From contig NC_060107.1 in NCBI RefSeq assembly GCF_021155765.1, positions 16,106,501 through 16,170,500 on the forward strand: a DNA stretch of 64,000 bases, read 5' to 3'. Position numbers and translations under genes: made by a program. Origin of the DNA: Diprion similis. Its lineage: Eukaryota > Arthropoda > Insecta > Hymenoptera > Diprionidae. Under the pieces are notes generated by a model. The model saw only the letters and a program-made list of their open reading frames with translations. It made no database searches and was not told the origin of the DNA. Positions 15,697-55,100 of this stretch are shown here, in pieces (position 1 is the stretch's first letter; each line of letters starts with the position of its first letter).

Positions 15697-18600
15697 TGAA
15701 GACGACTTTGCAAGGTAATGCGAAAGAATTTTTAGGGCACTATTCCGACGTAATTTCGCGAAAGGAATCGATTGGGCGCAGTCCCAATACGCTGCGAGCG
15801 ATAGCTGAAAAGTTACGGCCAAAAAACTCATGATTTTCACCGTCATTTCTCTACTGCGGGTCCTACGCTCTTTTTGATGTGTTTTCTGAGTTCCCAGGGG
15901 TGGAATTACCCCAGAGATAGTCATACAAATCGATTCCAAGACGACAAATTTTCGGCTCAGAAAATGACCAAAAAAGTAAGGCTAACCCCTTTGGATTTTT
16001 GGCGAAAATTTCGACGACTCTCAAAAGTGCTGCAATCAATTCTTTGAGGCACTATTCCGACGTAATTTCGCAAAAGGAATCGATTAGGCGCAGTCCCAAT
16101 TCGCTGCGAGCGATAGCTGAAAAGTTACGGCCAAAAAACGTATGATTTTCATCGTCGTTTCTCTGCTGCTGGTCCCACGCTTTTTTTGATGTGTTTTCTG
16201 AGTTCGTCGGGGTCGAATTACTCTGGAGATGGTCACACAAATCGATTCCAAGACGACAAATTTTCGGCTCCGAAAATGACCAAAAAAGTAAGGCTAACTC
16301 CTTTGGATTTTTAGCGAAAGTTTCGATGACTCTGAAAAGTGCTGCAATTGATTCTTTGAGGCACTATTCTGACGTGATTTTGCGAGAGGAATCGATTGAG
16401 CGCGGTCCCAATACGCTGCGAGCGATAGCTGAAAAGATACGTCCGAAAAACTCATGATTTTCATCGTCAAGTCTCTGCTGCTGGTCCTACGCTCTTTTTG
16501 ATGTGTTTTCTGAGTTTCTCGGGATCGAATTACTGTGAAGATGGTCATACAAATCGATTTCAAGACGACAAATTTTCGGCTCCGAAAATGACCAAAAAAG
16601 TAAGGCTAACCCCTCTGGATTTTTGGCAAAAATTTCGACGACTCTGAAAAGTGCCGCAAATCATTCTTTGAGGCACTATTCCGACGTAATTCTGGCAGAG
16701 GAATCGATCAAGCGCAGTCCCAATACGCTGCGAGCGATAACTGAAAAGATACGGCCCAAAAACTCATGATTTTCAGCGTCATTTCTCTGCTGCTGGTCCT
16801 ACGCTCTTTTTGATGTGTTTTCTGAGTTCGTCGGGGTCGAATTACTCTGGAGATGGTCATACAAATCGATTCCAAGACGACAAATTTTCGGCTCCGAAAA
16901 TGACCAAAAAAGTAAGAATAACCCCTTTGGATTTTTAGCGGAAATTTCAATGACTCTCGAAAGTGCTGCAATCAATTCTTTGAGGCACTATTCCGACGTA
17001 ATTTCGCGAAAGGAATCGATTGGGCGCAGTCCCAATACGCTGCGAGCGATAGCTGAAAAGTTACGGCCAAAAAACTCATGATTTTCACCGTCATTTCTCT
17101 ACTGCGGGTCCTACGCTCTTTTTAATGTGTTTTCTGAGTTCCCAGGGGTGGAATTACCCCAGAGATAGTCATACAAATCGATTCCAAGACGACAAATTTT
17201 CGGCTCAGAAAATGACCAAAAAAGTAAGGCTAACCCCTTTGGATTTTTGGCGAAAATTTCGACGACTCTCAAAAGTGCTGCAATCAATTCTTTGAGGCAC
17301 TATTCCGACGTAATTTCGCAAAAGGAATCGATTAGGCGCAGTCCCAATTCGCTGCGAGCGATAGCTGAAAAGTTACGGCCAAAAAACGCATGATTTTCAT
17401 CGTCGTTTCTCTGCTGCTGGTCCCACGCTTTTTTTGATGTGTTTTCTGAGTTCGTCGGGGTCGAATTACTCTGGAGATGGTCACACAAATCGATTCCAAG
17501 ACGACAAATTTTCGGCTCCGAAAATGACCAAAAAAGTAAGGCTAACTCCTTTGGATTTTTGGCGAAAGTTTCGATGACTCTGAAAAGTGCTGCAATTGAT
17601 TCTTTAAGGCACTATTCTGACGTGATTTTGTGAGAGGAATCGATTGAGCGCGGTCCCAATACGCTGCGAGCGATAGCTGAAAAGATACGTCCGAAAAACT
17701 CATGATTTTCATCGTCAAGTCTCTGCTGCTGGTCCTACGCTCTTTTTGATGTGTTTTCTGAGTTTCTCGGGGTCGAATTACTGTAAAGATGGTCATACAA
17801 ATCGATTCCGAGACGACAAATTTTTGGATTTGGAAGTGACCAAAAAAGTAAGGCTAACCCCTCTGGATTTTTGGCAAAAATTTCGACGACTCTGAAAAGT
17901 GCCGCAAATCATTCTTTGAGGCACTATTCCGACGTAATTCTGGCAGAGGAATCGATCAAGCGCAGTCCCAATACGCTGCGAGCGATAACTGAAAAGATAC
18001 GGCCCAAAAACTCATGATTTTCATCGTCATTTCTCTGCTGCTGGTCCTACGCTCTTTTTGATGTGTTTTCTGAGTTCGTCGGGGTCGAATTACTCTGGAG
18101 ATGGTCATACAAATCGATTCCAAGACGACAAATTTTCGGCTCTGAAAATGACCAAAAAAGTAAGGCTAACCCCTTTGGATTTTTGGCGAAAATTTCGACG
18201 ACTCTCAAAAGTGCTGCAATCAATTCTTTGAGGCACTATTCCGACGTAATTTCGCGAAAGGAATCGATTGGGCGCAGTCCCAATACGCTGCGAGCGATAG
18301 CTGAAAAGTTACGGCCAAAAAACTCATGATTTTCACCGTCATTTCTCTACTGCGGGTCCTACGCTCTTTTTGATGTGTTTTCTGAGTTCCTAGGGGTGGA
18401 ATTACTCTGGAGATGGTCATACAAATCGATTCCAAGACGACAAATTTTCGGCTCCAAAAATGACCAAAAAAGTAAGGCTAACCCCTTTGGATTTTTGGCG
18501 AAAATTTCGACGACTCTCGAAAGTGCTGCAATCAATTCTTTAAGGCACTATTCCGAAGTAATTTTGCGAAAGGAATCGATTGGGCGATGTCCCAATACGC

Positions 18601-21600
18601 TGCGAGCGATAGCTGAAAAGTTACGGCCAAAAAACTCATGATTTTCACCGTCATTTCTCTACTGCGGGTCCTACGCTCTTTTTGATGTGTTTTCTGAGTT
18701 CCTAGGGGTGGAATTACCCCAGAGATAGTCATACAAATCGATTCCAAGACGACAAATTTTCGGCACCGAAAATGACCAAAAAAGTAAGGCTAACCCCTTT
18801 GGATTTTTGGCGAAAATTTCGACGACTCTCAAAAGTGCTGCAATCAATTCTTTGAGGCACTATTCCGACGTAATTTCGTGAAAGGAATCGATTGGGCGCA
18901 GTCCCAATACGCTGCGAGCGATAGCTGAAAAGTTACGGCCAAAAAACTCATGATTTTCACCGTCATTTCTCTACTGCGGGTCCTACGCTCTTTTTGATGT
19001 GTTTTCTGAGTTCCTAGGGGTGGAATTACTCTGGAGATGGTCATACAAATCGATTCCAAGACGACAAATTTTCGGCTCTGAAAATAACCAAAAAAGTAAG
19101 GCTAACCCCTTTGGATTTTTGGCGAAAATTTCGACGACTCTCAAAAGTGCTGCAATCAATTCATTGAGGCACTATTCCGACGTAATTTCGCGAAAGGAAT
19201 CGATTGGGCGCGGTCCCAATACGCTGCGAGCGATAGCTGAAAAGTTACGGCCAAAAAACTCATGATTTTCACCGTCATTTCTCTACTGCGGGTCCTACGC
19301 TCTTTTTGATGTGTTTTCTGAGTTCGTCGGGGTCGAATTACTCTGGAGATGGTCATACAAATCGATTCCAAGACGACAAATTTTCGGCTCCGAAAATGAC
19401 CAAAAAAGTAAGGCTAACCCCTTTGGATTTTTGGCGAAAATTTCGACGACTCTCAAAAGTGCTGCAATCAATTCTTTGAGGCACTATTCCGACGTAATTT
19501 CGCAAAAGGAATCGATTAGGCGCAGTCCCAATTCGCTGCGAGCGATAGCTGAAAAGTTACGGCCAAAAAACGCATGATTTTCATCGTCGTTTCTCTGCTG
19601 CTGGTCCCACACTTTTTTTGATGTGTTTTCTGAGTTCGTCGGGGTCGAATTACTCTGGAGATGGTCACACAAATCGATTCCAAGACGACAAATTTTCGGC
19701 TCCGAAAATGACCAAAAAAGTAAGGCTAACTCCTTTGGATTTCTGGCGAAAGTTTCGATGACTCTGAAAAGTGCTGCAATTGATTCTTTGAGGCACTATT
19801 CTGACGTGATTTTGCGAGAGGAATCGATTGAGCGCGGTCCCAATACGCTGCAAGCGATAGCTGAAAAGATACGTCCGAAAAACTCATGATTTTCATCGTC
19901 AAGTCTCTGCTGCTGGTCCTACGCTCTTTTTGATGTGTTTTCTGAGTTCGTCGGGGTCGAATTACTCTGGAGATGGTCATACAAATCGATTCCAAGACGA
20001 CAAATTTTCGGCTCCGAAAATGACCGAAAAAGTAAGGCTAACCCCTTTGGATTTTTGGCGAAAATTTCGACGACTCTCAAAAGTGCTGCAATCAATTCTT
20101 TAAGGCACTATTCCGACGTAATTTCGCGAAAGGAATCGATTGGGCGCAGTCCCAATACGCTGCGAGCGATAGCTGAAAAGTTACGGCCAAAATTCCATGA
20201 TTTTCACCGTCATTTCTCTACTGCGGGTCCTACGCTCTTTTTGATGTGTTTTCTGAGTTCCTAGGGGTGGAATTACTCTGGAGATGGTCATACAAATCGA
20301 TTCCAAGACGTCAAATTTTCGGCTCCGAAAATGACCAAAAAAGTAAGGCTAACCCCTTTGGATTTTTGGCGAAAATTTCGACGACTCTCAAAAGTGCTGC
20401 AATCAATTCTTTGAGGCACTATTCCGACGTAATTTCGCGAAAGGAATCGATTGGGCGCAGTCCCAATACGCTGCGAGCGATAGCTGAAAAGTTACGGCCA
20501 AAATTCCATGATTTTCACCGTCATTTCTCTACTGTGGGTCCTACGCTCTTTTTGATGTGTTTTCTGAGTTCCTAGGGGTGGAATTACTCTGGAGATGGTC
20601 ATACAAATCGATTCCAAGACGTCAAATTTTCGGCTCCGAAAATGACCAAAAAAGTAAGGCTAACCCCTTTGGATTTTTGGCGAAAATTTCGACGACTCTC
20701 AAAAGTGCTGCAATCAATTCTTTGAGGCACTATTCCGACGTAATTTCGCGAAAGGAATCGATTGGGCGCAGTCCCAATACGCTGCGAGCGATAGCTGAAA
20801 AGTTACGGCCAAAAAACTCATGATTTTCACCGTCATTTCTCTACTGCGGGTCCTACGCTCTTTTTGATGTGTTTTCTGAGTTCCTAGGGGTGGAATTACT
20901 TTGGAGATGGTCATACAAATCGATTCCAAGACGACAAATTTTCGGCTCCGAAAATGACCAAAAAAGTAAGGCTAACCCCTTTGGATTTTTGGCGAAAATT
21001 TCGACGACTCTCAAAAGTGCTGCAATCAATTCTTTGAGGCACTATTCCGACGTAATTTCGCGAAAGGAATCGATTGGGCGCAGTCCCAATACGCTGCGAG
21101 CGATAGCTGAAAAGTTACGGCTAGAAAACTCATGATTTTCACCGTCATTTCTCTACTGCAGGTCCTACGCTCTTTTTGATGTGTTTTCTGAGTTCCTAGG
21201 GGTGGAATTACCCCAGAGATAGTCATACAAATCGATTCCAAGACGACAAATTTTCGGCGCCGAAAATGACCAAAAAAGTAAGGCTAACCCCTTTGGATTT
21301 TTGGCGAAAATTTCGATGACTCTCGAAAGTGCTGCAATCGATTCTTTGAGGCACTATTCCGACGTAATTTCGCGAAAGGAATCGATTGGGCGCAGTCCCA
21401 ATACGCTGCGAGCGATAGCTGAAAAGTTACGGCCAAAAAACTCATGATTTTCACCGTCATTTCTCTACTGCGGGTCCTACGCTCTTTTTGATGTGTTTTC
21501 TGAGTTCCCAGGGGTGGAATTACCCCAGAGATAGTCATACAAATCGATTCCAAGACGACAAATTTTCGGCTCAGAAAATGACCAAAAAAGTAAGGCTAAC

Positions 21601-24600
21601 CTCTTTGGATTTTTGGCGAAAATTTCGACGACTCTCAAAAGTGCTGCAATCAATTCTTTGAGGCACTATTCCGACGTAATTTCGCAAAAGGAATCGATTA
21701 GGCGCAGTCCCAATTCGCTGCGAGCGATAGCTGGAAAGTTACGGCCAAAAAACGCATGATTTTCATCGTCGTTTCTCTGCTGCTGGTCCCACGCTTTTTT
21801 TGATGTGTTTTCTGAGTTCGTCGGGGTCGAATTACTCTGGAGATGGTCATACAAATCGATTCCAAGACGTCAAATTTTCGGCTCCGAAAATGACCAAAAA
21901 AGTAAGGCTAACCCCTTTGGATTTTTGGCGAAAATTTCGACGACTCTCAAAAGTGCTGCAATCAATTCTTTGAGGCACTATTCCGACGTAATTTCGCGAA
22001 AGGAATCGATTGGGCGCAGTCCCAATACGCTGCGAGCGATAGCTGAAAAGTTACGGCCAAAAAACTCATGATTTTCACCGTCATTTCTCTACTGCGGGTC
22101 CTACGCTCTTTTTGATGTGTTTTCTGAGTTCCTAGGGGTGGAATTACTCTGGAGATGGTCATACAAATCGATTCCAAGACGACAAATTTTCGGCTCCGAA
22201 AATGACCAAAAAAGTAAGGCTAACCCCTTTGGATTTTTGGCGAAAATTTCGACGACTCTCAAAAGTGCTGCAATCAATTCTTTGAGGCACTATTCCGACG
22301 TAATTTCGCGAAAGGAATCGATTGGGCGCAGTCCCAATACGCTGCGAGCGATAGCTGAAAAGTTACGGCTAGAAAACTCATGATTTTCACCGTCATTTCT
22401 CTACTGCAGGTCCTACGCTCTTTTTGATGTGTTTTTTGAGTTCCTAGGGGTGGAATTACCCCAGAGATAGTCATACAAATCGATTCCAAGACGACAAATT
22501 TTCGGCGCCGAAAATGACCAAAAAAGTAAGGCTAACCTCTTTGGATTTTTGGCGAAAATTTCGACGACTCTCAAAAGTGCTGCAATCAATTCTTTGAGGC
22601 ACTATTCCGACGTAATTTCGCAAAAGGAATCGATTAGGCGCAGTCCCAATTCGCTGCGAGCGATAGCTGGAAAGTTACGGCCAAAAAACGCATGATTTTC
22701 ATCGTCGTTTCTCTGCTGCTGGTCCCACGCTTTTTTTGATGTGTTTTCTGAGTTCGTCGGGGTCGAATTACTCTGGAGATGGTCACACAAATCGATTCCA
22801 AGACGACAAATTTTCGGCTCCGAAAATGACCAAAAAAGTAAGGCTAACTCCTTTGGATTTTTGGCGAAAGTTTCGATGACTCTGAAAAGTGCTGCAATTG
22901 ATTCTTTGAGGCACTATTCTGACGTGATTTTGCGAGAGGAATCGATTGAGCGCGGTCCCAATACGCTGCGAGCGATAGCTGAAAAGATACGTCCGAAAAA
23001 CTCATGATTTTCATCGTCAAGTCTCTGCTGCTGGTCCTACGCTCTTTTTGATGTGTTTTCTGAGTTTCTCGGGGTCGAATCACTGTGAAGATGGTCATAC
23101 AAATCGATTTCAAGACGACAAATTTTTGGATTTGGAAGTGACCAAAAAAGTAAGGCTAACCCCTCTGGATTTTTGGCAAAAATTTCGACGACTCTGAAAA
23201 GTGCCGCAAATCATTCTTTGAGGCACTATTCCGACCTAATTCTGGCAGAGGAATCGATCAAGCGCAGTCCCAATACGCTGCGAGCGATAACTGAAAAGAT
23301 ACGGCCCAAAAACTCATGATTTTCATCGTCATTTCTCTGCTGCTGGTCCTACGCTCTTTTTGATGTGTTTTCTGAGTTCGTCGGGGTCGAATTACTCTGG
23401 AGATGGTCATACAAATCGATTCCAAGACGACAAATTTTCGGCTCCGAAAATGACCAAAAAAGTATGGATAACCCCTTTGGATTTTTGGCGAAAATTTCGA
23501 CGACTCTCAAAAGTGCTGCAATCAATTCTTTGAGGCACTATTCCGACGTAATTTCGCGAAAGGAATCGATTGGGCGCAGTCCCAATACGCTGCGAGCGAT
23601 AGCTGAAAAGTTACGGCCAAAAAACTCATGATTTTCACCGTCATTTCTCTACTGCGGGTCCTACGCTCTTTTTGATGTGTTTTCTGAGTTTCTAGGGGTG
23701 GAATTACCCCAGAGATAGTCATACAAATCGATTCCAAGACGACAAATTTTCGGCGCCGAAAATGACCAAAAAAGTAAGGCTAACCCCTTTGGATTTTTGG
23801 GGAAAATTTCGATGACTCTCGAAAGTGCTGCAATCAATTCTTTGAGGCACTATTCCGACGTAATTTCGCGAAAGGAATCGATTGGGCGCAGTCCCAATAC
23901 GCTGCGAGCGATAGCTGAAAAGTTACGGCCAAAAAACTCATGATTTTCACCGTCATTTCTCTACTGCGGGTCCTACGCTCTTTTTGATGTGTTTTCTGAG
24001 TTCCCAGGGGTGGAATTACCCCAGAGATAGTCATACAAATCGATTCCAAGACGACAAATTTTCGGCTCCGAAAATGACCAAAAAAGTAAGGCTAACTCCT
24101 TTGGATTTTTGTCGAAAGTTTCGATGACTCTGAAAAGTGCTGCAATTGATTCTTTGAGGCACTATTCTGACGTGATTTTGCGAGAGGAATCGATTGAGCG
24201 CGGTCCCAATACGCTGCGAGCGATAGCTGAAAAGATACGTCCGAAAAACTCATGATTTTCATCGTCAAGTCTCTGCTGCTGGTCCTACGCTCTTTTTGAT
24301 GTGTTTTCTGAGTTTCTCGGGGTCGAATTACTGTGAAGATGGTCATACAAATCGATTTCAAGACGACAAATTTTTGGATTTGGAAGTGACCAAAAAAGTA
24401 AGGCTAACCCCTCTGGATTTTTGGCAAAAATTTCGACGACTCTGAAAAGTGCCGCAAATCATTCTTTGAGGCACTATTCCGACCTAATTCTGGCAGAGGA
24501 ATCGATCAAGCGCAGTCCCAATACGCTGCGAGCGATAACTGAAAAGATACGGCCCAAAAACTCATGATTTTCATCGTCATTTCTCTGCTGCTGGTCCTAC

Positions 24601-27087
24601 GCTCTTTTTGATGTGTTTTCTGAGTTCGTCGGGGTCGAATTACTCTGGAGATGGTCATACAAATCGATTCCAAGACGACAAATTTTCGGCTCCGAAAATG
24701 ACCAAAAAAGTAAGGCTAACCCCTTTGGATTTTTGGCGAAAATTTCGACGACTCTCAAAAGTGCTGCAATCAATTCTTTGAGGCACTATTCCGACGTAAT
24801 TTCGCGAAAGGAATCGATTGGGCGCAGTCCCAATACGCTGCGAGCGATAGCTGAAAAGTTACGGCCAAAAAACTCATGATTTTCACCGTCATTTCTCTAC
24901 TGCGGGTCCTACGCTCTTTTTGATGTGTTTTCTGAGTTCCCAGGGGTGGAATTACCCCAGAGATAGTCATACAAATCGATTCCAAGACGACAAATTTTCG
25001 GCTTCGAAAATGACCAAAAAAGTAAGGCTAACTCCTTTGGATTTTTGGCGAAAGTTTCGATGACTCTGAAAAGTGCTGCAATTGATTCTTTGAGGCACTA
25101 TTCTGACGTGATTTTGCGAGAGGAATCGATTGAGCGCGGTCCCAATACGCTGCGAGCGATAGCTGAAAAGATACGGCCGAAAAACTCATGATTTTCATCG
25201 TCAAGTCTCTGCTGCTGGTCCTACGCTCTTCTTGATGTGTTTTCTGAGTTTCTCGGGGTCGAATTATTGTGAAGATGGTCATACAAATCGATTCCAAGAC
25301 GACAAATTTTTGGATTTGGAAGTGACCAAAAAAGTAAGGCTAACCCCTCTGGATTTTTGGCAAAAATTTCGACGACTCTGAGAAGTGCCGCAAATCATTC
25401 TTTGAGGCACTATTCCGACGTAATTCTGGCAGAGGAATCGATCAAGCGCAGTCCCAATACGCTGCGAGCGATAACTGAAAAGATACGGCCCAAAAACTCA
25501 TGATTTTTATCGTCATTTCTCTGCTGCTGGTCCTACGCTCTTTTTGATGTGTTTTCTGAGTTCGTCGGGGTCGAATTACTCTGGAGATGGTCATACAAAT
25601 CGATTCCAAGACGACAAATTTTTGGCTCCGAAAATGACCAAAAAAGTAAGGCTAACCCCTTTGGATTTTTGGCGAAAACTTCGACGACTCTCAAAAGTGC
25701 TGCAATCAATTCTTTGAGGCACTATTCCGACGTAATTTCTCGAAAGGAATCGATTAGGCGCAGTCCCAATACGCTGCGAGCGATAGCTGAAAAGTTACGG
25801 CCAAAAAACTCATGATTTTCATCGTCGTCTTTCTGCTGCTGGTCCTACGCTTTTTTCTATGAGCTTTCCGAGTTCCTGAGGGTCGCATTACTCTAGAGAT
25901 AGTCATACAAATCGATTCAAAGACAACTAATTTTCGACTCCGAATATGACCCCACAAGTAAGGCTTACCCCTTTGGATTTTTGGCGAAAATTTCGACGAC
26001 TCTGAAAAGTGCTGCAATTAACTGTTTGAGGCACTATTATAACGTAATTTTGCGAGAGGAATCGATCAAGCGCAGTCCCAATACGCTGCGAGCGATAACT
26101 GAAAAGATACGGCCCAAAAACTCATGATTTTCATCGTCATTTCTCTGCTGCTGGTCCTACGCTCTTTTCGATGTGTTTTCTGAGTTCCTCGGGGTCGAAT
26201 TACTCTGGAGATGGTCATACAAATCGATTCCAAGACGACAAATTTTCGGCTCCGAAAATGACCAAAAAAGTAAGGCTAACCCCTTTGGATTTCAGGCGAA
26301 AATTTTGACGACTCTCAAAAGTGCTGCAATCAATTCTTTGAGGCCTTATTCCGACGTCATTCCGCGAAAGGAATCGATTAGGCGCAGTCCCAATACGCTG
26401 CGAGCGATAGCTGAAAAGATACGGCCCAAAAACTCATGATTTTCATCGTCATTTCTCTGCTGCTGGTCCTACGCTCTTTTCGATGTGTTTTCTGAGTTCC
26501 TCGGGGTCGAATTACTCTGGAGATGGTCATACAAATCGATTCCAAGACGACAAATTTTCGGCTCCGAAAATGACCAAAAAAGTATGGCTAACCCCTTTGG
26601 ATTTTTGGCAAAAATTTCGACGACTCTGAAAAGTCCCGCAAATCATTCTTCGAGGCACTATTCCGACGTAATTTTGCGAGAGAAAACAATTAGGCGCAGG
26701 CCCGATACGCTGCGAGCAACGGATCTAAAGTTACAGCCAAAAAACGGAAGACGCATTTTCTCAATTTTTCTGCTGCTGGTCTTCACGTCATGATTTCACC
26801 GCTGTAGGTCCTACGCTCTTTTTGATGTTTTTTCTGAGTTTTTGGGGGTCAGATTAGTCCGGTAAGGTTTACACAAATCGATTCTGAGACAAAGGATTTT
26901 TGACCCAAACAAAAAGTAAGGCTAATCCCTGTGAATTTTGAGTGCAATTTTCGACAAATTCAAAAACGCTTGAAACAATTCTTTTAAGCACTTTTCTGAC
27001 GTAATTTTGCGAGAGGAATCGATTGAACGCAGTCCCAATACGCTGCGAGCAACGGATCGAGAGTTATAGCCGAACAACGAAAGATCT
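15697..27087 (+). repeat. Satellite array, about 36 tandem units of 312 bp with higher-order structure
   Basis: The unit recurs every 312 bp; the start of the block ATGTGTTTTCTGAGTTC falls at 18063, 18375, 18999, 19311, 19623 and onward. Two adjacent units (about 20.2 and 20.5 kb) are 311 bp because of a one-base loss. Variant units recur at exact multiples: AGTTTCTCGGG at 16513, 17761, 23063, 24311 and 25247 (steps of 1248, 5302, 1248 and 936), so 4-mer and 3-mer higher-order blocks exist. Conserved unit features are GGAATCGATT and its inverse AATCGATTCC, CAATACGCTGCGAGCGATA, AAAGTAAGGCTAACCCC, and the dyad ATTTTCGGCTCCGAAAAT. Units at the left edge are close to consensus; those after about 25.8 kb become increasingly divergent. 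No protein function is expected: open frames arise because 312 is divisible by three. Confidence 0.97.
26640..27087 (+). repeat. Degenerate right edge of the satellite array
   Basis: The last one and a half units keep only scattered landmarks: TACGCTCTTTTTGATG near 26811, AAAAAGTAAGGCTAATCCC near 26910, and GAGGAATCGATTGAACGCAG near 27013. Recognisable homology ends at about 27087. Decay toward an array edge is expected when unequal exchange homogenises only the interior. Confidence 0.8.
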
Positions 27088-32096: not shown

Positions 32097-35000
32097 TTAC
32101 TCGATAGCATAGAGCATGTAAAGATTGCCAGAATCATTGCCGGGTGGCACGAGTGCATGGGTTGGTGGTAAGACTGTGAAGCCAAGGAACATGAAGGTTC
32201 GAACGAGCATTGCTGAAATGATAAATACACAATCATCATACGTAGGAACTATCCACTGCAATTACCGGACGTCAAAAACATGACGCATGCTTACCTCGAT
32301 CGGAGCGATCCTTCCTCAGGCATACAACAACGTTGGTGCAGTTGAGAGTTTCTTCCGCATATTCGAGAAGAGAAACAAAGCCCTCTTTCGAACCCTCCGG
32401 AAGAAGACAGCTAGGAACTTGGATGTAGAGACAACCCTTCCACACGACTGTTTCCCACTTAACGCAAGTGCTTTCGGTCAATTGGAGCGCGAATGTTATG
32501 CGCATTGATTCATGCTTCTTTAATTCATTTAATAGTTCATTCTCCTGAAAAATTATAATGCTTGTCATTGAAAGATACGCAGTAGCACATTCAATTAGCG
32601 CAATAAACATTATTTTTATGGCAACTGCGCCCAAATTTTTCTGAAGGTATTTTGGAAAATTGTCTTGACAAATTCAAATATTTCCTGGAACCTTAGTATA
32701 AATATATTTCAATTTCTATGCAGAAAATTACTAAGAAAAATGGACCCTACCATCTAAATCAAGAGATGGAAAAAAATGAAAAACCGATTGAAAATCTCCA
32801 GCAATGTTATTTGCGCCATTGATAGTGACTAAGAGTTAAATAATGTCTCTGATATATAATAGAAATGAATCTAAGTAAATTTGAGTAACGTAAACTAAGA
32901 TGGCAACGATTTCAGAAAAGGTTTCATAATTGCAACATTCATAATGATTCGACAATGGTGATTTTTTTATCCACATTCTAATGTTTCTGCACAAATTTTC
33001 TATGCTGAGCAGAACTCTAAAAATTATCTGAACAATATTAAAGAAATTTTACAGTATAGTACAGTTAAAACCCATAAACGTAATTGTTAACAAATAGCTG
33101 TTGTACCTCACTTACGCAAACCCATTTTTATCGACTAAGGAGATAACTGTTCGCAAAAGTTTTCAGGTCATCTCTTAGAGATCTTTGAAGTGAACAAAAT
33201 ATACCTAAAAACATTAAAATCGGATCACAAACATCCGTGTCTAGGCATATTGAACATGCTTGTCACAGAACCTTTTCTCAAGTCATTTATATCATAGCCC
33301 ATGTTATTCGAATTTGCCCAGAATCATTGCTATTACATAGTAAGGATGTCGTTTCATTGGTGTTTATTATCATCGATTCAAGTAACAATGTTGGAGATTT
33401 ATTAATCAGAAATTCACTAATCAGAAATAATCAAAAGTACAAAAACTCCAAGATTTCGATATTTTCAGTACAAAAGGAAGTCTGGAGAGAATTTGAGTTG
33501 TTCCAAGAAATAAAATTTTTACCTTAAACTCGACTCAATCGTAAATATTCTGAATGTTGAAAACCTGGAGTTTTATCAGATTTTCAATAGGAAATGAAAG
33601 TCTGTAAGAGTAGGAGAATTTTACATAAACTTTCTAGAATTTCTTAAAATTGCTCACAATCAGACATCATTGGAATAGTTTAAGCACTTCCACCAGAAAT
33701 TATGTAGAATCTTTCTTGGTAGTCTTTAGAGATATGATAAATATCTGAGAAATTTCCGAAGTAAAAGTTGTACGAAATTTCTGAAAATTTTTTTCACTAG
33801 GAAATTCCTTAAACTTTCCACTTTTTATAGAATTGAGAAACGGTATTTACTTGAACAATTTGGGAGCTCACAGAGAGCTGACTCTGCTTAATCCCCACGC
33901 CGCGGCTCTCTGTGTTGACTGTTGAGACAGACAAGGCGGCATGGGGCGCATCAGGACCACCACAGAGGCCCCACGCCCAGCGTTATACAGTAGTGCTGCT
34001 GCTGTTGGCGCATTCCCTCATACATGCCTTCCTCCATGTACTTGCTCGACATCCCGCTTTGTGGAGAACGAAATAGTAAAATAAAGAGTCATAATTAGGT
34101 GCATATTCAAAGAAAATTCATTCATTATATGGGTCGATAATCACTATTAAATTCAAATTCGAGAAAAAAATAATCCCGCACCGGATTTTAAAAATATACC
34201 AAGAGTAGGCATGTTGTCAGAGAAGAATGTAAACACTCCAAAGCCAAAAATAAGACCTCAGAGGTACATGGACTGCTGTGCTTTAAATAGCGTAGGTTGC
34301 ACGAGTATGTGTGTGTGTGTGTTTTTTACCTAGTCATCCTGTATATCTCCTCTGTGTTCGTAAATGAGAGTTAAGAATTAAGAGAAGTTGATTTTATCTA
34401 CGTGCGTAGTACAATTCATTTTTCTAAGATAAGCTAATCTAGAAAATAATAAACACAGTTATGTAACTAGCTTTAAAAATTCTTCACATCACAAAAAACA
34501 TAAGTATTTAAAGTGACGAATGATAAATTGTGTTATAATATATTGTAAACTAAATGAAATTAGATCAACAAATTACATATTAGAAGTTGTTCACTCAAGA
34601 TGTAAATTATGTAAAATACAATCTATAATTTAACCAAATAAATGTATAAATGAGCCAACAAGAAGTAGAACAAATTAAGGAACAGAGTTTCGTTACGTAA
34701 ATCATGACCCAGATCAAAGAGGTTGTTATTTTTAAAGTAGAGATATGGAGGTATAAAATATGTCCTCTATAGAATTGTTGACATCGTTCGACTCCAAGTA
34801 GCCAAGAATATAAGCAGTATGTGTATTAGTAATGTTACACAATGTGTTCGTGAAGAAGCGGAATAGCTCTATTGCATGAGAGCAAAAAAGAAGAAAAAAT
34901 CAGAGCAATGTTTTGAACATAAAATGTATCACACTTTTATTTTTTGCGACGTAAGTTTGCTACAAGGAATCGAATCAGCGATCAAATGCAATCTTTTTTG

Positions 35001-39924: not shown

Positions 39925-41659
39925 TCAGCCGCACATGATTTGACGAACGAAGTCTTCATAATTAATGTTTCCTTGTGAATCCTCATGGCCAGCTAACAGG
40001 GTCTCAACTTCTTCGTCGCTGAGTTTCTCTCCTAGATAATTATGAACCATTAGTAAATATCATGCTTCTCAAATACACGAATAGATAAAAAATTAGTACC
40101 CAGATAAAATACACTTTTTAGTCAGAATATTGTTTGAACAATTGTGTTGACGTTGAAAATAACGAACCGTTCTAACATAAATCTCGATATTTCATTTTTG
40201 TATGAGCAATCATTCCCGCCCAAAATTATTTTCAGAACCTGTCAGAAATATCTACGAATCGACATATTTCTGACGAATTTCTAAAAAATTAGGTGGAATC
40301 TCTGAAACAAATTTTTTCTTCACGGCTAACTGAACATAGGGCAATAGTTTACATACCAAGTGTGGTTAGCAGATGCCTGAGTTCAGCGGATGAGATGTAA
40401 CCATTTCCATCTTTATCGAAGTGTCTCAAGCCCTCGATGAAGTCATCAGCAGTATCGGAGGTACGAGACTTACTAATGGCCTGATAAATGGGCAAGAATA
40501 CCTCAAAGCTAATTCTCTCATCAGGCTTATGCTGGTGAGTGAACTTTTTGACGTCCGATTCAGTCGGATTTTGACCCAAAGCTCTCAGGGCGTCGCCAAT
40601 TTGAGCGATGTGAATTTTTCCATCCCCGCGGCTGTCAAAAAGCTGGAAAGCCTCTTGGAATTCTAAAATATGATTAAAAAATGACAACAAACAAATCAGA
40701 TGAGATAAAAAGTAATGTCGCAAATTTTTACCTACAAATCCTTCAATTTCTTTTATTGTTACAAAAATAAATACTTCTACATAGACAGCAAAGAAATTTG
40801 CTATTAGATTTTACAAAATCAACAACGGTTGAACCTAAATCTGATAAGTACAACGTTATGTTCATCCTCAGAAGACAAGATTGGAATTTTATCAATGCTA
40901 ATGACGTCACTGAGCGTTACAAATAAGGTAAAATTATTAAGATATATGATTTACCCTCAACAGATGACATCATCCTGTTGGAAAGTTCTTGATAACTATA
41001 CCCATACATCTTTGTATGTTTATGTATATCGTGAAATATTAGGAAAAAGAATAGAAACAAAAAATGAACAGCAAAAACGATAAATTTGTCAGATATTTTT
41101 TGTAAATTCAAGTCACTGTTTGAGGAAAAAGATCATGGGTGATAAAATTTAAAATCTGCGTACAAATTCGCGCATATAGAACGATTATTGAAAATTGAAT
41201 AAAAACGTGAAATTATGGAATAATATAAGGCGAAAAAGATAGGTGTGGCTTTTTACGTTCTCAGCCTCATGAGATAATCGCGAAAACTGAACGCTCGAGC
41301 CAGAAATGAGAATAAATTGTCAATGTAAGGAAGAATATGGGAGAAACGTCGGTACAACAGAGGAACGTTCACTTTCAAAAGTCGAGCCATAAAAGGTAAT
41401 CCTCAATAAATAGAACCGGGGCGTGTCTAAAAAGGCGAAGGTATTCTTGACCTGAATTAACGTAAAGAAAAAAAAGGAGAAAAAATATCTGCCCTCCTTA
41501 GCGTGATACAGAGAGCTTCAGTCACTCACCGGCCAGCTGATCCTCTGAATACGAAGCCTGGAACAAGGGCATAATTTTTTTATAAATATTTCGTGCCTAT
41601 TTCAAACGGGTTAGTCGATTATTTTTTTTACGTCAATATGTCAAAGCGTTCCTTACCAT
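39925..41659 (-). CDS. Mlc-c: Myosin essential (alkali) light chain, cytoplasmic/non-muscle type
   Basis: Four exons: 41659-41657 (only the ATG), 41557-41530 (28 nt), 40662-40357 and 40031-39925. They total 444 nt, or 147 aa plus stop, the length of fly Mlc-c. The ATG ends exactly at a GTAAGG donor, a layout shared with vertebrate MYL6. The protein begins [20 protein letters not shown] and contains [37 protein letters not shown] and [20 protein letters not shown], all diagnostic of essential light chains. It has four EF-hand folds; the first and last loops lack key ligands, while the third ([12 protein letters not shown]) has an acceptable residue at every ligand position. The protein clamps the first IQ motif of myosin II or unconventional myosin heavy chains in the cytoplasm. 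Confidence 0.95.
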
Positions 41660-46164: not shown

Positions 46165-49100
46165 TCACTCTTCTTTCTGGTCACCGAACAAAAGAGAGCA
46201 GATTTTGTTCTTCAAGAAAACATTTGTAACAAACTTTGTATCACGTAGCGGCGCATTTGTCATAGGGCTTGAATATTTGCCACTTAACAACCATTCGTTG
46301 ATTGCAGCTCGTTCGTAAGTGAATCCATCTGAAAATCATGCAAATAAAAAATTACACGTAACGCTGTCACACGTTCTTTAAAACTGAAACTGTGCTGTAA
46401 TATGGACAATAGCAGACCTGAACATTGTACCGGTTCTCGCATAACTTCGTGCGTTATTGGGCACAGGAACTCGTGTGGTATTTCAAGATCCTCAGGAATG
46501 TTCCACGTATAGCTGTCTTCCCGTCTCAACCAGTACAATTGTTTCACAAAGGTTTCCATAGTCTGATAAAACATACGACATACAAACGATTGAAATTCGT
46601 AACTAGAAGGAGGTTCGAGGAGGGGGGGGGGGGGGGGGAGGGAGTCATAACTCGTTAAAATGAGCAAACACTTAAAGATCAGATACCTCTTCATCCTCAA
46701 TTTGTAAACCATCAACCAAAGTCTGTTCAGGCATCGTTAATAGGTGACGTCCGCTCAAAGACGTGCCTTGAATTTTTTCGGCTAAACGGGGCAATTCTAT
46801 TTCCCTGAACCATCTTGCTACTTCTTCGAATTTCCAGTCAGCCACCTAACATTATCAGTACTGCATTTTACTATCTTTTCGGATTGAAAATGCAGTATCT
46901 ACAATTCATAAAACACACACGAAATAAAATACTTACTCTCTTTTTCGCTTTCCTAAGTCTATCTGCTAGAATACTTTGCGACACCAATTGTTGAGGTAAT
47001 TTCCATACTAGTACAGTCTTATCTAATGCTCCTGTAAACAAATGTCAATATTTTTTGCTAAAGCGATAAAGCAATATACCGTCCAATAATGCCGTTTGAT
47101 GATGAAAAATAAAATACAACGACCGCCACTCGAGTATTAAATATTAAAAGTAATTAACAGCCCGATACGACGCCATTTTACTTCAGGCGTTAACATGTGC
47201 GATTTGAATAGTTCTGACGGTGGAAAAATCTGCAATAACAATTTTTTGCTTACTACTTATGTATCATGCAATACTCCGTTTTGGATGCTGATTTTTGGAT
47301 ATTCCACAAACAAGCCCGATTTTTGTGCACGCTACACAATATTGCATTGTTTTAGAACGTACCTGTAACAAACAGTGACGAATCTTGAGCAAAGGCACAT
47401 GCGGTCACAAGGCTGTCGTGATTTTCCAGTACGTGTAGACAGACTCCTGAATACTAAAGAAGCGCGACAATTATTCGTATTATCGTCTATAGTCGTTTCT
47501 AACTTCCCGCTCTTTTAAGAACGAAAGTTATTATCATCCCAAAATTAACAATTTAAGTTTTCACTAGATCTCGATCACATATTTTACTTAAAATTACTCT
47601 ACGGTATATCTTAAAAATCACTCACCACACTCCACAATCTAGCGGTTCGGTCAGTAGCAACGCTGCCTAGAATTTCCCCGTTGATAGGTGAAAATCTCAC
47701 GCTCATAACGTTACCACCATGTCCCGCCATCGACTTCCACAGCTTATAGGTTTGTCCCGTGACGTTGCTTGTACTTATGGAATTATATAATTCTTCGTCG
47801 CGGGATACAGGTACGACGTCGATGAATATCGTAATATGCCATAACTTAACCAAGGAATCATTACCACAAGTTGCCAATAAGTAGGAACGACGATTGATTC
47901 CGCCTGGATCCGTAAGCGGCACTTTGTGAAAAATTGTCAATTAATTAACGTTACTATCTGACAAAATTAGTCACTTTCTTTAATCAGCTGCATGCAGGCT
48001 CAATCTTTTCTAGTGTTGAATTCAAAAGCTGCGTATTCAATACTAATTAATCCATTGACACCTAATTGTCTAGCTAGGTATGCCTAATTTGCACATAGGG
48101 AAGGGTGGGGCAAAGTGGGCCCCTTAAGAAAATAATACCTAAAATCAGAAAAAAATATATTGCGAATAATTCATGTTCAATAAAAAGTTCAGGTGATTAA
48201 TTTTATCCCTTGTTATTCAAAAAATGTCAGGGGACCCACTTCGCCCTCAAATTTTTTGATATATCAAAAATTTTAAGATGCCCACTTTTCCCCCAGGGGC
48301 CCTCTTTGCTCCACCCTCCCCTACTAATCCACTCTTGATTTCCACACCGATTGAAAAGACTATTACAGTATATACGGCATTTTTTTCAATCAATTTTCAA
48401 AAAACGCTCATGATTGCATGACAATATTGTATTATGCACCAAGTGCTTCCAATGCGGTTTTTGACATAGTATGCGTGGAATATATGCGAAAAATATCGTA
48501 TGAAACATGTGCGTTTTACGCAAGCGTAGCGGTCGAATAGTACTCTTGGCCGGTAGAATTAATTATTATTGGTGGGTAGTGCTGGGTTAAATGGCACTTT
48601 TCGATGCGCTGCCTAAAATCGAATTTTACGCATACTGTGTCGAAAACGCACTTACGGAACTGAATATTGCATTTTCGTGTAGTCACTTATTTGAAATCCT
48701 TAAACTCGAAAAGGCGTCATCTGGTAGCAGTAAAAATACTGCTCCAACTAGCTCGGGTTTAATTATAAAGGTAATTTTTAGCACATATTTTACTCTGCAT
48801 TGACTTCATGTTCCAAAATCAAAATTTAACAGCTTGCACGCTGTATTCTGTGCCTTGGAATTAGTGAAATTCCTGTGAAATGATCAGCTAATTGTCCATC
48901 GCAACGCCTTTTGCCAGAATAACGCTTCCATTAAGGATGCCAATTCTTTCACCGTGCACAGAAGTGAATGCGAATTTACCTGCAGATGCCACGGGTTCTA
49001 AAACAGGGCTAAAATCAGAATCTTGTACCCCTAAATCATGTCCCTGTTCGCAAAAAATTAACGGACATTGAGTGTGCGTATTTATATCGTCAAATAGCCT

Positions 49101-52100
49101 CCATGTTCCTTCGCTGCAGGCCGTCACCAAGTAGCTTGAGTCTGGGGTAAAGGCAATGGCGGTAATTGCATCTGAGTGACCCTCAAAAACCCTGGGGGCA
49201 TCAGGGTTGATATATATAAATGTTGCTTATATGTCATAAACAGAATTTACCGTTCATTATATTAAATTAGCTGTGAGAAACAAATAATCAAGTCAGATTT
49301 GATAATTACTGCATTTCTTCCATGGTATCCACATTCCATAATGTCGTTTTCTCGTCATCCCCCGCCGTAGCAATCATTTTCCCATTTGGAGACCATCGGC
49401 AAACGCGAATCCCTGATCCAGAGTTTACAAAATTTGCCTTTGCTCTACCCCCCATCTGTACAAAATCAACATGGTTTTGTACACAAATTTCTTACTCTAG
49501 TATATTAGAATCCTTAACGCGATGTAGCAGTTCTACCTTTACCGACCGAGCGAACTCATCCGTTTTCTGCTTATAATCAATGAACAAACGATCGGAATGG
49601 GTTGAAATTTCGACAGTGCATAGTGCTTTTGTAGTGGAATCGGACGTTCTTTGGTTAGAATGTTCTTCGTTGGGACACTCGACCGTGCTCCCAGCTGATC
49701 GCGAGAGTATCTTTTATTTACGAAATTATTGTAATTACTAGTTTTCTTTTAGCGGTTTCAATATTGCATGAAAACAGTCTCATAATAGCTCATTTTACTC
49801 TTCATTCTTACCAGAATCGGAAGGTTCCTCCAATATGCACTTCTTTGCCCCTGAAATGCGGGAAATGTGGGAATAGCGACACGTGTCAAAAAACCACACT
49901 TTTTTCTGACGATTTTCGGAATATGAGTAACCTTCCTCGATTCCGCTATAAAAAAGCTATGCATCGTCGAAATTTCAACCCATTTCGATCGTTTGTTCTA
50001 TGGAGAGTAGAGAGAAGGAGGCTCAACTCGGCGCTTCTTACATGAAACTAACATTTATCTGCGAACAAAATTTCGGCAAATAATAGTTCTAATTATTGCC
50101 GACGGCAGCGCTGGCGCGGATTATTCTTGAATTAGTAATTCGAAGTGGGGGTAACATTGTGTTCTTTAATCTACAGACATATATGTATATGTATATCGAG
50201 AACAAGCGTTGTGAGTGCCACGTAGCGGCGAAAAGAACAGTTACTATTTTCATGAGTTTTGACATCACGTGTAGCGCCGAGTTGAGCCTCCTTCTCTCTA
50301 CCCTCCATAGATACGACGATGACTATATTTAAGTATCAATGCAATATATTTCACAAGAGTCGATAAGGTTTATATAAGAGTTTATAATTGCCAGGAGAAG
50401 AAAAATCTCGAAAATCGTTTCATAAGTAAATGGAATGTCACAACGTAAGGTTAAGTTCTTGTGTTCAAACATGTTAACATTCATAATTAATTGATATAAA
50501 AAAAAAAAGTAAATAAACTAGTGTTTGGTAATTAAGATAAATATAATAAGAAAAATACATTTTTCATATTCAATACTCAATGTCTTTTCTTAAACCACTC
50601 TCGAAAAAAAACTTCATACCAGCGGCGCTTAATATTCGTCAGTTTCTAGTTAGAAAGAACCAGATATTGGTCGCGTGCTTAGAGCATATAAGGTCGCGTG
50701 TGTCTCTCTATGCTATGCCACTAACACCGCCATATCGCCGTAGCTAGGGCCGAAACTAATGTATGGAGAGTGTGGAGACCTACACACAAGAAATTTTTTT
50801 GTGTCAGCAAAAAACTTGGGAAAATTGATTTCATACATAGATTTGCAACCTAATTATGAATAATATGCGTTATACAATATTATACCCCGCTATATTAGCC
50901 TCGCTCTCCCTGTATAGCTTTGCTGTTTAAGTCGACACTCGAAATTCATAGAAGTCGAAAGTTCAACAATCAAATTTTTCAAAATCAAATTTTTCAAAAT
51001 AGTACCTAGATTTTAAAAAATTCGGGTATGTGAACTCTTAATCTTTACCAATAAAGGATCGCATGAATATTGATGTCTCGCTACAATCCGATTATAAAGA
51101 ATTTCCTGTACAAAGTTTGAGAACTTTGTGCACACTTGTACAAAATATCGTAAACCCCTAATTTTTTCCTTAGCATCATAGTGAAATCTAAATGCTTTGT
51201 CTCTGTTGAGCATAGAAAGTGAAATCGCTCGTGATTTAGATTTTTGAAATATAAAAAATGATTTCACCAGCGTTAAGACGCAAAAAAATATTAAATATAA
51301 TTTCTCAATTAAGAAATATTATAATAAAATTTTTACGGCTTTTTAAATTTAACCTATTGGATCATTTTGCAGCACCGACATTCGACCTTTTCTTGTAGAG
51401 CAGCCTTAGGTATCGTACCCCCTTAATCCGGACCTAGGCCTAGCTACATCCAAAATGTGGATCCCAAAAATCTAACCATCATTTGAAAAGAGGACTGCGT
51501 ATCTTCACGTTTGTTCTCAAAAAAAAAAAAAAAAACTGCAACGTTAGGGATACACAGCAATTTATCTACTACTAATAAAAGAAGTTGAGTACCTCTGTAT
51601 CCCACACGATTGTTGTACCGTCTAAAGAGCAGGAAGCGAGCATAGTGCCACATGGGCTAAACTCCACGTGATTTACGCTGTACTTGTGACCCTCCAATGG
51701 GCCGAAGCTTTTTTCTTCAAACTTCACCTCACCGCCGTAAGTTTCGCCATCAATTTCCACAGCTTCCCAAATACGAACAGATTTATCCCTAAATATGGGG
51801 ATCAATTATTACATGCCGAGACCACATTAGCATGAATGTTCTACACCACATTAGGACTTCTTATTTATTTCCGTGATATAAAATTGCGACATTCAAGAAT
51901 TGTATTATAAATCGTATGTGCAGTACATATTTTCCTCGTTTATCTATTTTTTACTCACCCTGACCCCGACGCTAACAGGGTGTTTCCGTAAAAGGCAACG
52001 CTATTAACTGCCCCACCATGATCATCGATTCTTTGTATCAGGCTAACTTTGTTGTCAGTGCACTCTGCTTGTTTCACGACTTCGTGCTCTCCCAAAATAA

Positions 52101-55100
52101 TCTGTAATCGCATTTTCATTCACAATTATACTAATTTAGTAATTAGCGTGGCCATGCATTGGAATGGTCGGACTTAAAAAACGCCTTTTAATGGCAGTAA
52201 ATATACTGCACTAGCTATGACGTGGCTGTCGATCATATTTATTTATTAAAGTGATTTTATCGCATATTTTACTTTTAATTGATTCGTAACAAAATTACAG
52301 TCCAACAGCTTGCACGATGTTTTCTGTGCCTTGAATATTTGTCAAATTTACTCAAAACAATCAGCCGATTATACACAATGCGACGCACTATTGAATTTCA
52401 AACACCACACTTAGTTCGCTTGTCTATTATTCTTTTTTGAAAACACAAGCTTTGATAACGTGAGGAAAAAAATCACAAGTTTTCCTGCTTGCGCGCATTC
52501 AGCACTGCAAGAATGGACTTATTGTATACAGCAAATAGCTTATTCCACTTTCAATCACAAATTGAAAGAAAATAACTGAGCGTTGTTGTGGTTCCATTGT
52601 TATTGAAATTCATACCGGAAGTGTGTCTGTCTTGATTCAATGAGATTCAAGATTTGATTACGTACCTCACCGCCATAAGTATAATGCCTTTTGGGGCTAC
52701 AACGTTTCACTAGATCAGAGTCAAGGCTCAAGTTCCCATTTAAATCCCAAACGATAACGGACTTGTCGTTGGACCCTGCGATATAAAAAAGAAATTTTTG
52801 AATGTTACTTCTAGTGAATTCAATAGAAAATTCAATTTTTCCGAACGGTGCTAATTTCTTCACGTTTATAGATAATTCACATAAGTACACTAACTAAATG
52901 AACCAGCCTCACCCGTAGCAATCAAATTACCATCTCTGGAAAAGGCGCAGCAAGCAACGTATCTTTTGTGGCCTCCAAGAACTGCAAGTATTTTTCCAGT
53001 CCTCTGAAACAGTGTTTACATGACAGAGTTTGAGTTTCCAACACTGATAATTAGCGGGTTGCACATGATATTAAAAAACTTACTGTTTCCCAAATAACCG
53101 ACGTCTTATCCAACCCACTGCTGACTATATAAGAACCATTCGAATTGAACCGAACGCACGTTAAAGCACTGCTATGTTTTTCCATAGTTCTACACAAATT
53201 TAGCGACGCGATCGATGGGTGCGTCTCACATTTGTTTTGCACCACAAACACCTCCCAAAACTTAACCGTATGATCATTTCCACATGTTACCAAATGATAC
53301 AACTTTTTGAACGGTTCGTTATCTGCAAAGTCAAAAGTTCCTGTGCAAATGGTCGAAGGATGTTGGTAGAAACACATAAGGAAGATTATTAGACTCTGCG
53401 AGAAGAACGTTTTAAAGACACTGAGAATTGGCATCATCTTGGAAAATGCAAAGATGTTTTACAATTAGGTATATTGTTTATGATGGACTTACCCCTTACT
53501 TCTTGATAAGATGAGAAATCGCAAGAAACAACTCCCAAGTCATGCGCATCGTCTACGGAAGTAAGGGCGGAAATAACTTGATTGTCTGAGGTACAAGTAT
53601 CGCTCAATTCAGCCGAAGAAAATAACTTCAGAACACCAAATGTGCAAGATGTCACAAGCCAACAGGAGTCAGGCGAGAAACACACGCTTTGAACAGCTCC
53701 TTCATGTTGCTGGAACGAGCTACAAAGACGAGATCAAATTTTTTTGAAGCCTTTTCCACAATCTTTACCAAATTAGAGTTAGGCATGACTCTTGAGATCT
53801 GCCATGCTCAGCACATTTCTACATATCCCTAACAATAATGTATAATTAAAAAATCTGTAAATAATTATTGATTCTATGTTTATCACCTTGGAGAGTAGTA
53901 TAATTAACGAACGAACATGATGCATTATTAAGAATAATTCACGGTCACCAGATTTATTATATATTACTTGTTAGCATGTGTTGTGAGGATCAATAGTTAG
54001 TCCCCAGAATGAATACACCTCCTGACTTAGTGTTTTTATCGCACGTAAACGGCTGTAATCACAACCATATCGTATATGTTTGATACGTCAATATTTTTCC
54101 ATAACAAGATGTTGTATTTAGAATATATCGTTTGCCAGAGTTATGAACACTGTGTACGCAAACATAGTGGGTACATGCCCTATGCATGCACGAACGGGAA
54201 TTTTTTCGGCGATAAGTATTGGCCATATCAACGATAAGGGGTCATCCATAAATTACGTCACATAAATCATATGAGTTCTTATCTTACTCACTTGTTGTGG
54301 CATCACTCATTTAGTAATTTTTTATTCAGGACTTGATTAAAACAGCTCTCCTAATACTATCCTCATTTCTTAATATCTTCAAATAAAGTAACAATATGTA
54401 TGTACATTATCAAACAATAGATAGTAATTAGAGCCAGCGAGAGTTCAATAGTTTTAATCCTAGAAGGTTGTCGAAAGGAAAAGGGGTCTTAAAATGCGTG
54501 AAGATCGAAATAAAGAGGGATACAAAGAAAAAGAAGAAAATACAAAGAAAGAGACAGATATAGCTACACGGGTGACAACGAGATTTTGAATTTTCGAGCA
54601 TGTGAGAAATACATTACAGATACATGTAGTACATACATACATCGCGACATACATGAGACATTTGCCGAAACAGATAGATACTCAAAATCAATAGAAACAA
54701 AAAACGTATATTCTTATATTGTTTTTGGCTGAAAACAATTACTCATCCTGTGTCCATGAACTTTCAAACCATTCTCTTACATTATTCATTACCGAGATAG
54801 TACCTACTTCGTTATCTTTTTGGATGGCGATGGGAAAATTGGAATTGTCAATATTTCAGATAATATGTGACGTCCTGAAGCTTATGACGGGGTCTTGTCA
54901 CAATTTGTGAACCCCCTCTCTCTCCCTTTGCGTGTGACATAATTAATGGATGACCCCCAAGAGCGGAAGTACATCTATATATATATATAACCCATAACGT
55001 GGGTACAATGGTAAATACGTCAATTAAGGACACCAGAAGTATTTTCCTGCAATTAGAATGTGAAATATCGATACGTCTGCTGGTGGCCCTGGAATAAATT

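Follow-up and report, generated by a model that had tools for sequence, protein, structure and literature searches.

The antizyme locus

This study concerns a minus-strand gene within a 64-kb stretch of Diprion similis DNA (NC_060107.1; the whole stretch analysed is referred to as the window) and a candidate pseudoknot that follows its frameshift site. Judged by its sequence, the gene is an antizyme gene, the second open reading frame of which (ORF2) is predicted to be accessed via programmed +1 frameshifting at TCC-TGA. Antizyme holds polyamine levels down and is made only if ribosomes skip one base. The exon borders were set from the sequence (AG/GT and reading frame), and the coding parts are as follows:

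33872..34056, minus strand: antizyme exon in which ORF1 ends and ORF2 begins, shift site included; first ATG at 34052-34050, 5' edge inferred from the AG at 34058-34057
33950..33956, minus strand: +1 shift site TCC-TGA-T, from the sequence; the TGA closes ORF1
32295..32544, minus strand: next antizyme exon, in the +1 frame, from ENELLNEL... to RSDR, placed by frame and protein match
32097..32212, minus strand: last coding exon, with the end MLYAIE-TAA, placed by frame and protein match

ORF1 is short and stops at the TGA inside TCC-TGA-T. When translated from the first ATG of the shift-site exon, its end is MSSKYMEEGMYEGMRQQQQHYCITLGVGPLWWS, the C-terminal residues being ...LGVGPLWWS. ORF2 is the +1 frame and is spread over three exons, running to 33872, then from 32544 to 32295, and finally to the TAA within 32212-32097. 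Joining the exons and skipping one base at TCC-T gave an uninterrupted product of 181 amino acids. This product matched the Pfam family PF02100 (ODC_AZ) with 74.1 bits against a curated cut-off of 24.2 (E=1e-20), and the domain sits in the +1 frame relative to ORF1, which stops at the TGA of the shift site. It also matched four listed PDB sequences (best E=1.1e-26), each of which bears the name antizyme or antizyme 1. The shift-site pattern is present once in the window, and G-V-G-P occupies codons -8 to -5 relative to it, which is the entry for Drosophila in Table 2 of a 2016 review (PMC5009743). The frame, the shift site and the protein matches all agree with the antizyme +1 recoding signal that the original prediction had proposed here. 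Among the literature titles listed, none on an antizyme gene was attributable to this locus.

Geometry of the candidate pseudoknot

With regard to the region 3' of the shift site, it had been claimed that an 11-bp stem starts 4 nt past the TGA and that an 8-nt block in its loop is complementary to the end of the exon plus one base. Both were recovered, the first as 33946-33936 paired with 33903-33893 and the second as 33912-33905 paired with 33878-33871 (8 bp). The four strands are:

33936..33946, minus strand: stem 1, 5' strand, 11 nt, CCCCATGCCGC; from complementarity, with pair probabilities of at least 0.994 in the nested ensemble
33893..33903, minus strand: stem 1, 3' strand, 11 nt, GCGGCGTGGGG; from complementarity and the nested ensemble
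33905..33912, minus strand: stem 2, 5' strand, 8 nt, CAGAGAGC, inside the loop of stem 1; from complementarity
33871..33878, minus strand: stem 2, 3' strand, GCTCTCTG; from complementarity, with 33878-33872 in the exon and 33871 the first G of the intron

Stem 1 comprises 10 Watson-Crick pairs and one G-U pair, while every one of the 8 bp of stem 2 is Watson-Crick. The pseudoknot loops measure 23, 1 and 14 nt. The spacer between the end of the TGA and stem 1 is 4 nt long (TGCG, 33950-33947), or 3 nt when counted from the T of TCC-TGA-T.

We consider it probable that this gene uses antizyme +1 frameshifting with an H-type pseudoknot, made of stem 1 and stem 2, as its 3' stimulator. The ribosome would meet the TGA in its A site, and the peptidyl-tRNA on TCC would slip one base forward, with reading resuming at GAT GCG. 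The 11-bp stem 1, 4 nt past the TGA, would act as the stimulator together with stem 2, with which it would form an H-type pseudoknot. Polyamines would raise the level of frameshifting, and the antizyme thus produced would lower ornithine decarboxylase and polyamine uptake. The slippage, the stimulation, the polyamine response and the formation of stem 2 in the mRNA are all inferred from known antizymes.

Stability, chance and competing folds

Both stems are complementarities above chance in most of the controls. The summed stem energy of the H-type pseudoknot is -43.9 kcal/mol, and the best H-type pseudoknot found near the shift site in control sequences equalled this value in none of 400 dinucleotide shuffles, in one of 400 synonymous-codon permutations and in none of 400 random synonymous recodings. 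Stem 1 alone was equalled in 0/1500 dinucleotide shuffles, 1/1500 recodings with ORF2 codon usage and 0/1500 uniform recodings. In the 400-sample controls, a stem as good as stem 1 or better was likewise absent from the dinucleotide shuffles and from the random synonymous recodings (0/400 each). In the nested ensemble computed for 82 nt, the pairs of stem 1 had probabilities of 0.994-1.0. The 106-nt region had a stability z-score of -3.09, and none of 200 shuffles was as stable.

Several observations weigh against the pseudoknot as stimulator. The first arises from the permutation of synonymous codons within the region, in which 48 of 400 samples had a stem at least as good as stem 1. Presumably the region offers this control only a small set of codons, from which stem 1 would often be rebuilt. 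The count could also be read as a sign that coding sequence and composition produce the complementarities as a by-product, with an inactive 3' region and a shift that depends on TCC-TGA and the upstream sequence. We consider this explanation highly improbable, as the wider controls gave stem 1 in only 0, 1 and 0 of 1500 samples and the pseudoknot in 0, 1 and 0 of 400.

The second concerns stem 2. With stem 1 in place and an inter-stem loop of up to 6 nt, stem 2 was met in 20 dinucleotide shuffles, 6 mononucleotide shuffles, 24 synonymous recodings with ORF2 usage and 16 uniform synonymous recodings (each out of 5000). When any inter-stem loop was permitted, these counts became 79, 12, 26 and 18, respectively, and the 79 of 5000 dinucleotide shuffles count against stem 2. 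The third is the nested minimum-energy fold, which at -35.2 kcal/mol is about equal to the estimated pseudoknot. In this fold, most of the 5' strand of stem 2 has its partners inside the stem 1 loop, and five bases of the 3' strand are bound to a CAGAG a few bases upstream. Pseudoknot penalties range from 7 to 13 kcal/mol; when they are added to the stem energies, the spliced pseudoknot is estimated at -36.9 to -30.9 kcal/mol. It beats the nested fold only if the penalty is below about 8.7 kcal/mol, and a penalty of 9.6 gives -34.3 kcal/mol. Given that the nested energy falls inside the range of the pseudoknot estimate, energy alone is no arbiter between the two structures.

These values leave room for an alternative in which the frameshifting is real and the stimulator is the long stem 1 hairpin, accompanied by nested inner and downstream hairpins, with stem 2 being incidental or an alternative conformer. 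The nested fold, which about equals or betters the pseudoknot estimate, speaks for this reading. The strands of stem 2 are CAGAGAG/CTCTCT runs with other partners close by, and the occurrence of stem 2, although rare, is not beyond what chance can yield (6 to 24 of 5000 control sequences, rising to 12 to 79 when the inter-stem loop was unrestricted). Nevertheless, stem 2 consists of 8 perfect Watson-Crick pairs, is separated from stem 1 by a single nucleotide, as in a stacked H-type pseudoknot, and was seldom met in the synonymous-codon controls (24 and 16 of 5000). We therefore regard the hairpin alternative as rather unlikely, though it carries more weight than the by-product explanation. 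The formation of stem 2 in the mRNA, as modelled here, is plausible to likely, not proven. With respect to the H-type pseudoknot of the original prediction, the geometry and its excess over chance were borne out, but the nested fold, with a similar energy, engages both strands of stem 2 in other pairs.

The remaining points against the pseudoknot come from database searches. No homologue that could be used for covariation was found among viral contigs, phages and genome contigs, a collection from which the window's own genome was possibly excluded. None of the Rfam matches belonged to an antizyme family, neither the 4 with E up to 5 (8001 bases) nor the 6 with E up to 10 (131 bases) nor the single one at gathering score for the whole window. 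The vertebrate antizyme 1 frameshift pseudoknot corresponds to the Rfam family RF00381 (Antizyme_FSE). Rfam covariance models hold no pseudoknot pairs.

In the viral contigs, the protein search gave 20 pattern stretches, none of which was a relative, and the shift-site pattern gave 0 matches; the protein search of phages also found none. All four matches of the shift-site pattern in genome contigs belonged to bacterial records, and these were taken as chance because the best tblastn match of the ORF2 protein had E=0.24. Weak Rfam matches, such as one to mir-205 with 19.9 bits (gathering score 55), were dismissed as being far below their cut-offs.

Stem 2 and the splice junction

The exon ends at 33872, the first base of the intron (33871) is a G, and the next exon (32544-32295) also opens with a G. 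Stem 2 has seven wholly exonic pairs and an eighth that uses the intron G before splicing and the G at 32544 after it. The claim that the last base of stem 2 is a G in both the intron and the next exon is thus correct. The further claim that the pseudoknot is completed across a splice junction applies to one terminal pair of eight, and the effect is slight, seven pairs being already present in the exon. The shared G was set aside as a meaningful feature. A G at this position needs no special explanation, being the first base of introns in general and of many exons.

In unspliced RNA, stem 2 can be extended:

33869..33914, minus strand: full extent of the 10-bp stem 2 before splicing, with two extra pairs (33914-33913 with 33870-33869)

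The 10-bp form pairs CACAGAGAGC with GCTCTCTGTG and spans intron bases 1-3; the two extra pairs could, on their own, well be due to chance. With penalties of 7 to 13 kcal/mol, the unspliced pseudoknot is estimated at -41.2 to -35.2 kcal/mol, compared with -36.4 kcal/mol for the nested fold (82 nt). Five penalties were tried; the unspliced pseudoknot is more stable than the nested fold at 7, 8, 9.6 and 11, but the spliced one only at 7 and 8. The 5' splice site (33866-33874, TCT|GTGAGC) is weak, with TCT on its exon side. Pairing with the 5' end of U1 in the usual register over GTGAG amounts to -4.4 kcal/mol, whereas the gene's next donor reaches -9.6 and a consensus site -11.8; these energies leave out the modified bases of U1. 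Retention of the intron would end the frameshifted product at 80 amino acids.

Given that stem 2 covers intron bases 1-3, that the U1 pairing is weak, that the retained product is 80 amino acids long and that the penalty comparison favours the pseudoknot more often in unspliced than in spliced RNA, a knot with two jobs can be imagined. Its 10-bp nuclear form would mask the start of the weak 5' splice site, and its 8-bp spliced form would stimulate +1 frameshifting. We offer this model as a long shot. If it were true, the stability of the knot, which is perhaps polyamine-dependent, would set both intron removal and frameshifting. Among the titles listed in a literature search on antizyme pseudoknots with exons or introns, none dealt with such a pseudoknot located at a splice site.

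Other features of the window

A tandem array with a 312-bp unit lies about 5 kb past the antizyme stop codon; its GC content is about 0.44, compared with 0.30-0.36 alongside. The open reading frame tested within it showed no Pfam match. This array and the other features of the window are:

15736-26745: tandem array, 312-bp unit, 35.3 copies, 91% matches; open reading frame tested at 20201-20575
1638-1710: tRNA match in Rfam, 38.8 bits; ARAGORN did not find a tRNA there
9361-11108, minus strand: open reading frames of a major-facilitator transporter (9361-10143, 10593-11108)
40349-40810, minus strand: frame of an EF-hand protein
46284-53458, minus strand: WD40 frames (48888-49226, 53051-53458) and the U-box start listed next, belonging to one gene or several
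46284-46736, minus strand: U-box start, slightly below the curated cut-off, near the WD40 frames
60666-61127, plus strand: clathrin adaptor small chain, E=2.7e-40

Comparison with known systems

Regulatory +1 frameshifting has its textbook example in antizyme, whose 3' stimulators vary among lineages. An additional well-formed invertebrate pseudoknot would help to chart the gain and loss of this structure, and one whose end coincides with a 5' splice site allows a direct test of whether splicing and recoding are connected.

The -1 pseudoknot of the coronavirus infectious bronchitis virus (IBV) has a long stem 1 and acts together with a slippery heptamer. By contrast, the present signal is cellular, shifts by +1, has a stop codon in the A site and lacks a slippery heptamer. 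The 11 bp of stem 1 correspond to the minimum functional length of the IBV stem, approximately one A-form turn, as given in the 2016 review (PMC5009743).

The vertebrate antizyme 1 pseudoknot resembles the present candidate in following UCC-UGA and in its close start, which is 3 nt in mammals according to the same review and 4 nt past the TGA here. It differs in that mammalian pseudoknots are unlike invertebrate ones, as the legend of Figure 14 in PMC5009743 states. That legend describes pseudoknots in the antizyme mRNAs of the oyster Crassostrea gigas and of an aphid, unlike the mammalian type and with compensatory changes. The present structure is similar to these, comprising a shift site in an antizyme mRNA followed by a candidate pseudoknot of a non-mammalian type. 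An invertebrate antizyme pseudoknot was already reported in 2004, as cited in a 2015 paper, and Ivanov et al. 2004 (J Mol Biol) on this subject is among the works cited by PMC4505036 and PMC4551804. Since the legend includes the oyster and aphid examples, this kind of pseudoknot is already in print, an insect included, and the structure considered here would be a further member of it, or the same structure in another species.
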